From positions 1 through 37,788 of the forward strand of contig SVGL01000021.1 in NCBI GenBank assembly GCA_015056325.1: DNA of 37,788 nt, given 5' to 3'. Each line of letters opens with the position of its first letter. Position 1 is the stretch's first letter. This DNA is from Clostridiales bacterium (GTDB lineage Bacteria > Bacillota > Clostridia > Christensenellales > Aristaeellaceae). Below are positions 12,991 to 16,065 of the stretch, one piece after another. The notes beneath the pieces are model-generated. The model saw only the letters and a list, made by a program, of their open reading frames with translations, ran no database searches and was not told the origin of the DNA. The position numbers were made by a program, and so were the translations under genes.

Positions 12991-13020
12991 TTGACAATGG
13001 CCCGGATGCTGTGTTATCCT
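12991..13020 (+). promoter_or_regulatory. Promoter of the met leader and metQNI
   Basis: TTGACA (12991-12996), 18-nt spacer, TATCCT (13015-13020) preceded by TGT as an extended -10. Transcription should start near 13027, giving a leader of about 375 nt before metQ. Confidence 0.75.
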
Positions 13021-13154: not shown

Positions 13155-13217
13155 ACGCTGACCGGTTCCAACAGGATTTCCGGTACCACGGCGGACAATG
13201 AGGAAGCTGCATCGGAG
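13134..13217 (+). promoter_or_regulatory. Predicted antiterminator pairing of the met leader
   Basis: CTTCGCTGCGCTTTC (13134-13148, leader codons 23-27) can pair with 13202-13217 (GGAAGCTGCATCGGAG). This gives 14 base pairs including two G-U, with one C/U mismatch and one bulged U. The second strand is the left arm and loop of the terminator, so the two structures exclude each other. A ribosome stalled on early Met codons leaves 13134-13148 free and favours this pairing (read-through). A ribosome reaching the stop at 13152 covers it and favours the terminator. Confidence 0.72.
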
Positions 13218-13239
13218 AGATGAGCTTCCTCTTTTGTTT
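13200..13239 (+). terminator. Attenuator (intrinsic terminator) in the met leader
   Basis: GAGGAAGCT (13200-13208) pairs with AGCTTCCTC (13223-13231). Past one bulged G, CATC pairs with GATG, closing a GGAGA loop; TTTTGTTT follows. It lies 46 nt after the leader-peptide stop and 162 nt before metQ. The stretch 13240-13401 shows no other recognisable element. Confidence 0.9.
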
Positions 13240-13401: not shown

Positions 13402-14244
13402 ATGAAGAAGTTCCTGTCTCTGGTCCTGGCTGCCCTGCTGGTTCTGTCCTGTACTGCCGCGTTTGCCGATGGCATCAAGATCGCCGTGCCCAACGACCCC
13501 ACCAATGAAGGCCGCGCCCTGCTGCTGCTCCAGGCCAACGGCTACATCACCCTGGATCCCAACGCCGGCGTCACCGCCACCGCTGCTGACGTGATCGATA
13601 ATCCCCTGGGCATCGAGTTCGTCGAGGTTGAGGCCGCGATGGTTCCCAACATCCTGCCCGATGTGGACTACGCCATCATCAACAACAACTACGCCCTGGA
13701 CTTCGGCCTGAATCCCGTGGCCGATTCCCTGCTCATCGAGAGCGCTGATTCCCCCTATGCCAACGTGCTGTGCGTGAACGCCGGCAACGAGAATACCGAC
13801 GCCGCCAAGGCCCTGGCCGCTGCCCTGTACAGCCAGAAGGTTGCTGATTTCATCACCGCCACCTACAATGGCGCTGCTGTCTCCGTCGTGGCTGAGCCCA
13901 CCGATGGCTTCGATCCCACCGTGGATTACGCCGCCCTGGCCGGCACCACCATCACCGTGGCTGCTTCCCCCACGCCCCATGCCCAGATCCTGGCCGTTGC
14001 CGCTGAAATCCTGGCTGAGAAGAAGATCACGCTGGACGTGATCGAGTACACCGACTACGTGCAGCCCAACATGGCTGTTGCCGATGGCGATCTGTTTGCC
14101 AACTACTTCGCCCACATCCCCTACCAGGAGAACTTCAACGCCGAGAACGGCACCAACATCGTGGTTGTCGCTCCCATCCATGTGGAGCCCATGGGCCTCT
14201 ACGGCGGCCAGCAGGCCAACCTGGATGCGCTGAACGCCAAGTAA
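13402..14244 (+). CDS. metQ: MetQ/NlpA-family methionine-binding protein, circularly permuted
   Basis: Substrate-binding component of the methionine ABC importer, 280 residues. Residues 1-22 are a signal peptide; VLSC at 14-17 is a possible lipobox, and AFA at 20-22 an alternative signal-peptidase-I site. The family segments are in reversed order. Residues about 25-160 (KIAVPNDPTNEGRALLLL, LEAAMVPNILPDVDYAIINNNYA, ESADSPYANVL) correspond to the C-terminal portion of ordinary MetQ. A linker of about 20 residues follows. Residues 182-280 (ITVAASPTPHAQIL, VIEYTDYVQPNMAVADGDLFANYFAHIPY, EPMGLYG) are the usual N-terminal lobe, ending LDALNAK exactly where ordinary MetQ continues into DGxxVAVPND. 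AAGGAGA precedes the ATG. All family motifs are intact, so it probably folds and binds methionine. Confidence 0.9.
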   Translation: MKKFLSLVLAALLVLSCTAAFADGIKIAVPNDPTNEGRALLLLQANGYITLDPNAGVTATAADVIDNPLGIEFVEVEAAMVPNILPDVDYAIINNNYALDFGLNPVADSLLIESADSPYANVLCVNAGNENTDAAKALAAALYSQKVADFITATYNGAAVSVVAEPTDGFDPTVDYAALAGTTITVAASPTPHAQILAVAAEILAEKKITLDVIEYTDYVQPNMAVADGDLFANYFAHIPYQENFNAENGTNIVVVAPIHVEPMGLYGGQQANLDALNAK

Positions 14245-14326: not shown

Positions 14327-15358
14327 ATGATCGAATTGCGCAATCTATCGAAGTCCTTCGTCACGGCGGACGGGCCTGTGGACGCGCTCAAACACGTCAA
14401 CCTCACCATCAACAACGGTGATATCTACGGCATCATCGGCATGTCCGGCGCGGGAAAGTCCACCCTGGTGCGCTGCATCAACATGCTGGAGCGCCCCACC
14501 GAGGGCTCCGTGGTGCTGGATGGCCGCGACCTGGGTACCCTGAACAAGCATGAGCTGCGCCAGGTCCGCCGCCGCGTGACGATGATCTTCCAGGGCTTCA
14601 ACCTGCTCATGCAGCGTACCTGCGTGCAGAACATCATGCTGCCCCTGAAGCTGGCGGGCGTCAGCAAGGCCGAAGCCAAGGCCCGCGCACTGGCCCTGCT
14701 GGAGGTCGTGGGTCTGCCGGACAAGGCAAACTCCTATCCTGCCCAGCTCTCCGGCGGCCAACAGCAGCGTGTTGCCATCGCCCGCGCGCTGGCCACCAAT
14801 CCCGACGTGCTGCTGTGCGACGAGGCTACCTCCGCCCTGGATCCCAAGACCACCCATGCCATCCTGGGCCTGATTCGTGAGATCAACGCCAAGATGGGCA
14901 TCACCGTCATCGTCATCACCCATCAGATGAGCGTCGTGCAGGAGATCTGCAACCGCGTCGCCATCCTGGAGAACGGTGCGGTGGTGGAGGAGGGCGAGGT
15001 CGCAGACGTCTTCGCCAACCCCAAGGCCGAGGCCACCAAGAACCTGGTCTATCCCGAAATGGCCGACGCCAACGTTGCCCTGGGCGACAAGCACGGCCAG
15101 CGCGTGCGCATCATCTTCAACGGCGCCATTGCCGCCAACGAGCCGCTGATTGCCAAAATGGCCATGGAGGTCGGCATCGCAGCCAGCATCCTGGGCGCAT
15201 CCACCCGCGCTGTGGGCGACCGCGCCTACGGCTACATCCTGCTGGAGATCCCCGGCGGCCCGGATGAGCTGGCCAAGGCGGTCAACTTCCTCCGCCAGAC
15301 TCCCGACGTGACCGTGCAGGTCCAGGTTGACTATGCTCAGACGGAGGTGCACGCATGA
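14327..15358 (+). CDS. metN: Methionine ABC transporter ATP-binding protein MetN
   Basis: Cytoplasmic ATPase powering methionine import, 343 residues. Walker A is GMSGAGKST (K44), the Q-loop FQGFNLL, the ABC signature LSGGQQQR, Walker B VLLCDEATSALD and the H-loop ITHQM. From about residue 265 to 338 lies the MetN C-terminal NIL (ACT-like) domain, ending with LEIPGGPDELAKAVNFLRQ. In E. coli this domain binds methionine and shuts the transporter down (trans-inhibition). The ATG follows ATGGAGGAATCCACCA. The stop overlaps the metI start (ATGA at 15355). Confidence 0.97.
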   Translation: MIELRNLSKSFVTADGPVDALKHVNLTINNGDIYGIIGMSGAGKSTLVRCINMLERPTEGSVVLDGRDLGTLNKHELRQVRRRVTMIFQGFNLLMQRTCVQNIMLPLKLAGVSKAEAKARALALLEVVGLPDKANSYPAQLSGGQQQRVAIARALATNPDVLLCDEATSALDPKTTHAILGLIREINAKMGITVIVITHQMSVVQEICNRVAILENGAVVEEGEVADVFANPKAEATKNLVYPEMADANVALGDKHGQRVRIIFNGAIAANEPLIAKMAMEVGIAASILGASTRAVGDRAYGYILLEIPGGPDELAKAVNFLRQTPDVTVQVQVDYAQTEVHA

Positions 15359-16065
15359 ATCAGTTCGTGAGAGCCTTCCAGCCTGAGCGCCTTGCCGAGG
15401 CCTGGCAGATCGTCCAGCGGGACTTCCCCGAAGCCCTGTGGGAGACGATGTACGTCACCATCCTGTCCACGTTCTTTGCCATCGTGATCGGCCTGCCCCT
15501 GGGTATGCTGCTGGTCGCCGGCGACGCCAAGGGCATCCGCCCCATGCCCGCGCTGCTGATGAAGATCATCAACGTGGTGATTAACCTCCTGCGCTCCATC
15601 CCCTTCCTGATCCTGATCGTGGTCGTCATCCCGCTGACCCGCCTGATCGTGGGTACCTCCGTGGGTACGGTGGCGTCCATCGTGCCGCTGGTGGTGGCGG
15701 CGTTCCCCTTCGTGGCCCGTCTGGTGGAATCCTCCCTGCGCGAGGTGAACCCCAACATCATCGAGACCGCCCAGTCCATGGGCGCGACCCCGATGCAGAT
15801 CCTGCTGCGGGTGATGCTGCCTGAGGCGGTACCCTCCCTCATCACCAACTTCACCCTGGCGATCACGACCATCCTGGGCTACACCGCCATGTCCGGCGCG
15901 ATCGGCGGCGGCGGCCTGGGCAATATCGCCATCATGATCGGCTACAACCGCTACAAGTACGCGGTGCTTTACGCCGCGGTGATCGTGCTGGTCATCCTGG
16001 TGCAGGTCATCCAGAGCTTTGGCACCTGGCTGGCCGCCAAGTGCGACAAGCGGCTGAAGAAGTAA
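15355..16065 (+). CDS. metI: Methionine ABC transporter permease MetI
   Basis: Integral membrane permease, 236 residues, with about five membrane segments beginning at MYVTILSTFFAIVIGLPLGM. The EAA-type coupling loop is visible as ETAQSMGATPMQILLRVMLPEA (near residues 138-160); this contacts MetN. The segment SGAIGGGGLGNIAI is typical of the MetI branch. The start overlaps metN by four bases, so translation is coupled. A strong terminator follows immediately, making metI the last gene of the operon. Confidence 0.97.
   Translation: MNQFVRAFQPERLAEAWQIVQRDFPEALWETMYVTILSTFFAIVIGLPLGMLLVAGDAKGIRPMPALLMKIINVVINLLRSIPFLILIVVVIPLTRLIVGTSVGTVASIVPLVVAAFPFVARLVESSLREVNPNIIETAQSMGATPMQILLRVMLPEAVPSLITNFTLAITTILGYTAMSGAIGGGGLGNIAIMIGYNRYKYAVLYAAVIVLVILVQVIQSFGTWLAAKCDKRLKK

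Follow-up and report, generated by a model that had tools for sequence, protein, structure and literature searches.

Organization of the Locus

The window, a stretch of 37,788 nucleotides from a Clostridiales bacterium (contig SVGL01000021.1), carries on its forward strand an open reading frame (ORF) of 280 aa with an ATG start (13402-14244) that encodes a homolog of the methionine-binding protein MetQ. It is followed on the same strand by metN (14327-15358), encoding an ABC ATPase with a NIL domain (PF00005 and PF09383), and by metI (15355-16065), encoding the permease (PF00528). The best NCBIfam matches were ABC_MetN for the former (346.4 bits, below the cut-off of 499.7) and MetI for the latter (202.3 bits; cut-off 212). 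The Pfam domains support the original prediction for this DNA in placing metN and metI beside the metQ gene.

PF03180 was the only Pfam family to match the window MetQ at E ≤ 0.01, with 240.1 bits against a cut-off of 27, and the match is split over two stretches, the best of which aligns protein residues 21-161 with positions 94-234 of the 236-position profile. Alignment to PDB structures, a kind of check proposed with the prediction, gave a consistent picture: all 22 PDB sequences at E ≤ 0.01 aligned in two stretches, and in the three printed alignments, residues 182/183 to 269/277 lie on the N-terminal part of the PDB chain and residues 20-23 to 160/161 on its C-terminal part. Lobe-specific HMMs located lobe 2 at residues 23-160 and, after a 20-residue gap, lobe 1 at residues 181-277. 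Each lobe was placed once, which upholds the claim of a clean permutation, neither duplicated nor truncated. The lobe-2 segment (residues 23-160, 13468-13881), formerly the C-terminal part of the family and now first, is delimited by Pfam, the PDB alignments, the lobe HMMs, and a structure match; a linker of 20 residues (161-180, 13882-13941) joins the old C terminus to the old N terminus; and the lobe-1 segment (residues 181-280, 13942-14241), the family N-terminal part and now last, is delimited by Pfam, PDB, and lobe HMMs, all three features lying on the forward strand. Lobe 1 terminates in LDALNAK at the old inter-lobe joint, exactly where the cut had been predicted, and the swapped lobe order, the segment boundaries, and the linker of about 20 residues were likewise confirmed by Pfam, PDB alignments, and lobe HMMs. 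The order of lobe 2 before lobe 1 is opposite to that of the 103 distinct standard proteins compared, and because lobe 1 does not precede lobe 2, we assign the window MetQ to a permuted branch of PF03180 rather than to canonical MetQ.

The NCBIfam model for MetQ (TIGR00363) scores the window protein at 157.3 bits, under its cut-off of 228.85. Five standard-order relatives likewise fall below the NCBIfam MetQ cut-offs (179-217 bits), so the low score does not come from the permutation alone, and we dropped the permutation as its cause.

Distribution of the Permuted Genes

A colinear match of at least 258 residues was present in at least 108 of 300 genomes of the family, the window's own included, a number that counts the matches listed and to which group B (below) and standard-order genes do not contribute. 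Among the matches listed, 16 of 18 genomes of the genus have a colinear permuted match; in 14 of these 16 carriers of group A, the window's own group, the A gene is the sole match at E ≤ 0.001, with at most eight first-look candidates scored per genome. In the window's own genome (85% complete, 63 contigs), the window metQ is the only match. Permuted matches occurred in 7 of 248 genomes of the order (two of them outside the family), in 15 of 291 genomes of the class besides the window's own, from nine other families, and, at E ≤ 1e-45, in 2 of 299 genomes of the phylum besides the window's own. Two carriers within the family, G163 (3.39 Mb) and G185 (3.56 Mb), are each assembled as one contig.

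Scanning genome contigs of 533 relatives yielded 80 loci that were kept, 65 of which (L002-L066) are permuted, with an identical junction at 55-88% identity. Close relatives of the window species share the permuted order; the ordinary order in homologs had been named as an outcome that would overturn the prediction. In six pairwise comparisons with permuted relatives, dN was 0.08-0.19 and dS was 0.32-0.72; dN is well under dS in each, which indicates purifying selection on the permuted metQ. Many gut and rumen Clostridia carry a MetQ with swapped halves that, as judged from sequence, probably serves in methionine capture. The Campylobacter loci L067-L070, which at first resembled hits with a large gap, proved to be tandem pairs of standard metQ. 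Rumen metagenome-assembled genomes (MAGs) labelled Chloroflexi are among the 65 permuted loci: A-type metQ was found in L034, L038, L044, L047, and L051, labelled Chloroflexi, Anaerolineaceae, or Flexilinea, and L034 adjoins G163 of the window's family in the tree, suggesting transfer or a binning error.

Phylogeny of the Permuted Clades

Searching other genomes for the same lobe order, a step suggested with the prediction, recovered three separate permuted clades, A, B, and C; the permutation is no single oddity, and it extends further than the original prediction supposed. The distinct proteins number 97 for A, 15 for B, 7 for C, 1 for D (L242), and 103 of standard order. Group C was found only via a search of 148 genomes around Gemmiger, in which 59 genomes had a match and 9 of the 59 a permuted one (7 C and 2 A).

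A FastTree phylogeny of 177 rows, from which near-copies had been dropped out of 249, contained three changes of lobe order, with the warning that long branches meet at B and at L130. A more careful tree was built from 101 chosen rows (29 A, 11 B, 5 C, and 56 standard), leaving out two long rows, L242 and the standard protein of L121. In it A, B, and C each occupy one side of a branch (support 100/99, 100/99, and 100/100), and both the tree and the 5-95% range of 200 bootstrap trees give three changes of order; the bootstrap itself was unsettled (correlation 0.987). Trees of each lobe alone also gave three changes, few forks being resolved with lobe 1 alone (support for B 45). Rows with long enough partner proteins numbered 66 for a MetN tree, 78 for a MetI tree, and 76 for a tree of MetQ and MetI combined. 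The combined tree again has three changes, C is not a single clade in the MetN tree (two changes), and A is a single clade in the MetI tree only with L075 included.

The lobe models lie one residue apart in 101 of the 103 standard proteins, and A, B, and C are all cut at that point. Their linkers are mostly 20 residues in A (93 of 97 distinct proteins), 27-30 in B, and 14-15 in C, and by eye their sequences show no resemblance between the clades; within A, G169, Y176, and L179 are invariant in 52 aligned rows. Gene order in A is metQ-metN-metI in 85 of 97; it is unread in eight, where the fetched DNA ends nearby, and neither metN nor metI was found within the fetched stretch of the remaining four (L019, L020, L022, and L039). 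In C it is metN-metI-metQ in all seven, an order shared with the standard-order neighbors L227 and L219, to whose MetN and MetI those of C are near. The 15 B genes comprise 12 with metQ first, 2 with metQ last, and 1 unread, and the standard gene nearest to B, L244, has metQ last and encodes the MetN and MetI closest to those of B. Among the 103 standard genes, 49 have metQ last and 6 have it first, 4 have neither order, and 44 are unread. Linker lengths, operon order, and MetNI partners are independent marks that agree with the three clades. We read the separate clades, the different linkers, and the different MetNI partners as at least three independent permutations, and the trees suggest that MetQ was permuted independently at least three times, in A, B, and C, at the same joint.

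The highly divergent permuted gene L242 (2996-3934), with metQ last and a long branch, falls inside A in the FastTree run and is possibly a fourth permutation.

Tandem Genes and the A Linker Motif

Tandem standard metQ genes occur in L067-L070 and L252-L254. A three- or four-lobe fused intermediate was found in none of the 264 ORFs. Three long ORFs considered as such were rejected: L250 (1449-3188) has an SBP_bac_3 domain (Pfam) ahead of a standard MetQ, L251 (1370-3100) has, by eye, an N-terminal part like that of L250, also ahead of a standard MetQ, and the long ORF of L249 overlaps metI in a different frame. At L121 (4039-5934), a permuted B gene has a standard-order NlpA gene immediately 5′ of it, both on one strand.

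The motif DGFDxxVDYxALxG of the A linker is found at the N terminus of two standard-order proteins, L075 (5881-6774) and L199, and is absent from the other standard ORFs of the set (present in 3 of 96 rows, L198 being the same gene as L075). Both genes stand in the order metQ-metN-metI and have an A-like lobe 1 and an A-like MetN, and in lobe 2 they cluster with standard genes; the MetI of L075, the only one of the two tested, is also A-like. Grouping A with L075 and L199 was neither shown nor rejected by the AU test (p = 0.151). From their sequences, the two genes would be relics of the ancestor from which A arose or else have come about through recombination with A. Their mixed parts mean that recombination or reversal may have occurred, which could blur the count of permutations. 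The simplest route to the permutants would be fusion of tandem metQ copies, in which lobe 2 of the leading copy became joined to lobe 1 of the one behind it, with subsequent loss of the outer halves, and the A linker may descend from the N-terminal extension still present in the two standard-order genes.

Predicted Structure and Methionine Site

Structure prediction, also proposed at the outset, returned one confident model for the window MetQ (pLDDT 92.6), which matches lobe 2 of MetQ in its initial part and other binding proteins with two lobes over its entire length. Lobe 2 is 38-48% identical to the five best PDB chains. In Neisseria meningitidis MetQ (NmMetQ), methionine is contacted by R156, N213, and N238 in one lobe and by Y81, F98, H100, and Y103 in the other (PMC6739813). 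We equated R156 with R38 from the aligned ranges and placed the other contacts by motif and spacing, N213 corresponding to either N94 or N96. The residues R38, N94, N96, N121, Y219, F236, H238, and Y241 are invariant in all 97 distinct A proteins, and the mapped ligand residues are invariant in all seven C proteins as well. Group B has the same residues except for Thr at N96 (15 of 15) and Phe at Y241 (2 of 15); in D, N94 is replaced by Pro and Y219 by Trp. The conservation of these contacts makes a methionine site very likely for A and C, with B a less certain case and D a doubtful one.

Upstream Region

Upstream of the window metQ is an ORF of 28 aa that contains 11 methionines (MMKQQAIMMSMMMPMCMCRMSMLRCAFK; 13068-13154, forward strand), preceded by a promoter-like TTGACA-18-TATCCT (10 of 12 positions; 12991-13020, forward strand), a weak indication taken alone, with one found and a mean of 0.7 in shuffles. 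The leader ORF is followed on the same strand by a hairpin and then TTTTGTTT (13200-13239), which folding suggests is a putative attenuator terminator: the stem spans 13200-13231 (-20.7 kcal/mol), with one bulge and a T-rich tail. A terminator scan of the window using a different rule listed none at 13200-13239. Methionine-rich leaders, defined as ORFs of 8-60 aa within 450 bases upstream that start with ATG and contain six or more Met and 20% or more Met, thresholds that were chosen after the window leader was seen, were detected in 36 of 96 upstream regions of A, 6 of 15 of B, 0 of 7 of C, 0 of 1 of D, and 3 of 88 of standard genes, and in none of 2,070 dinucleotide shuffles. A hairpin with a T-run follows the leader in 45 of 45 under a loose rule with no shuffled control.

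Rfam at gathering score had no match in 10 sources that include the window, one match in a set of 15 sources, and none in a further 20; just upstream of the window metQ, Rfam gave no meaningful match. The single match is a T-box (RF00230) lying 5′ of a permuted A metQ (L063, 4983-5250), whose aligned specifier triplet we take to be AUG, the register being our own reading of T-box anatomy. Both the window leader and this T-box point to methionine. Amino acid biosynthetic operons of the his, trp, and leu type are controlled by leader-peptide attenuators. The region upstream of the window metQ resembles these in that a terminator-like hairpin comes after a short ORF enriched in codons for the cognate amino acid, and differs in that the codons are for methionine and the gene downstream is a metQ of Clostridia. 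The window operon is probably regulated by attenuation through a methionine leader peptide. Leader-peptide attenuators of hisS have been described in bacilli (PMC2965389); no description of a leader peptide for methionine was found in the literature searched.

Interpretation and Comparison with Known Systems

We consider it highly likely that the window gene encodes a working methionine-binding component of a MetNI importer that is permuted at the first inter-lobe joint, with at least three origins of such proteins and a probable leader attenuator at this locus. It is like known members of the MetQ/NlpA family (PF03180; N. meningitidis and Escherichia coli MetQ, 4k3f, and 4qhq) in both lobes, the ligand residues, and the metN and metI partners, and differs from them in having lobe 2 first, an extra linker, and a cut at the inter-lobe joint. 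The permuted MetQ would bind methionine between its lobes, close like ordinary MetQ, and dock on MetI. Judging from the lobe order and what is known of the Type II fold, the cut at the first joint would leave one covalent inter-lobe crossover instead of two.

No natural circular permutation of MetQ/NlpA was found reported in the open-licence literature searched, in line with the original statement, which knew of none for the family. A natural permuted binding protein of another kind has already been published: TpMglB-2 (Tp0684), a glucose-binding protein proposed as "Type Ic", a permutation also reported in Gram-positive gut bacteria and for which tethering was proposed as a reason (PMC4990184). 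TpMglB-2, too, is a naturally permuted binding protein of an ABC importer, but it is a Type I sugar-binding protein forming a single proposed subclass, whereas the window protein belongs to PF03180 and has a different cut. TpMglB-2 gains a fourth inter-lobe crossover, where the window MetQ should lose one, and its permuted part is only 13% identical to EcMglB (PMC4990184), whereas both parts of the window MetQ are clear homologs. TpMglB-2 was the one published natural permutation of a binding protein found, as judged from titles and the openings of abstracts; an imelysin paper also mentions circular permutation. Permuted MetQ is widespread in Clostridia and very probably recurrent, apparently at one site.

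That nearly all of the named permuted loci (65 of the 80 kept) are labelled MAG might favor a misassembly or binning artefact of metagenome data. We regard this as extremely improbable given the junction shared by 65 loci at 55-88% identity, the permuted gene in the single-contig genomes G163 and G185, the low dN/dS, and the constancy of the 20-residue linker (93 of 97), and misassembly of the window metQ was rejected on its conserved permuted orthologs. A permuted paralog that no longer binds methionine and has taken on another ligand or a sensor role would fit the Thr at N96 in all 15 B proteins together with MetN and MetI distant from those of the window, which mean that B may have a different ligand, as well as the scores of the window metN and metI under their NCBIfam cut-offs and the 4 of 97 A genes without nearby metNI. 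For A this sits poorly with the retention of all mapped contacts, with the A gene being the only match in its own genome (85% complete), and with the methionine-rich leader before the window metQ, and we think such a change of function unlikely.

We likewise find improbable a single ancient permutation whose scattered pattern arose by later reversals and lobe replacement through recombination. Pieces may indeed move, as the mixture of A-like and standard-like parts in L075 and L199 implies, and on MetQ alone the AU test did not reject A with C (p = 0.077). The same test rejected A, B, and C together (p = 0.0029), B with C (p = 0.011), and A with B (p = 0.032); with MetQ and MetI combined, using a quick tree and assuming that the two travelled together, it rejected A with C (p = 1.1e-119) and A with B (p = 4.3e-6). 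The linkers are also unlike in length and, by eye, in sequence, and C is nested among standard genes that share its operon order and have the nearest MetNI. The permutation may be a neutral accident that leaves the mechanism unaffected, a view we hold to be just short of evenly balanced: the ligand residues and, mostly, the linkage to metNI are kept, and linkers of 14-30 residues are able to connect the old termini. Against neutrality, the cut falls at one and the same joint in three clades, and nine further families of the class contain A, either of which may hint at an advantage and does not show one. A broader reading, to which we give an even chance, is that Type II MetQ has been permuted at least three times and perhaps four, counting L242, at the same joint, that the permuted proteins are a single-hinge subclass kept for altered opening or tethering, and that many A and B operons are run by attenuators. 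On the preferred reading, a functional methionine-binding protein cut at the first joint, these proteins are a natural experiment on the amount of covalent hinge needed by a Venus-flytrap protein, and the standard-order relatives, the tandem metQ loci, and the two genes with the linker motif are material for testing the duplication-fusion route.

N Terminus and Anchoring

The signal peptide of the window MetQ, read by eye, comprises residues 1-22 (13402-13467, forward strand) and ends AFA|DG. Cys17 fits a permissive lipobox only; close relatives, L003 and L004 among them, lack this Cys and keep AxA|D. The N termini of the 97 A proteins comprise 43 that fit the permissive lipobox, a pattern that also passes the window protein, 45 with an SPI-like AxA, 8 with neither, and 1 with no start called; clear lipoboxes exist in some A proteins, for example L023 and L035. 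Full stimulation of MetNI by NmMetQ requires lipidation (PMC8416018). The permuted MetQ proteins of L010, L012, L014, L016, and L102 have an N-terminal hydrophobic stretch resembling an uncleaved membrane anchor.
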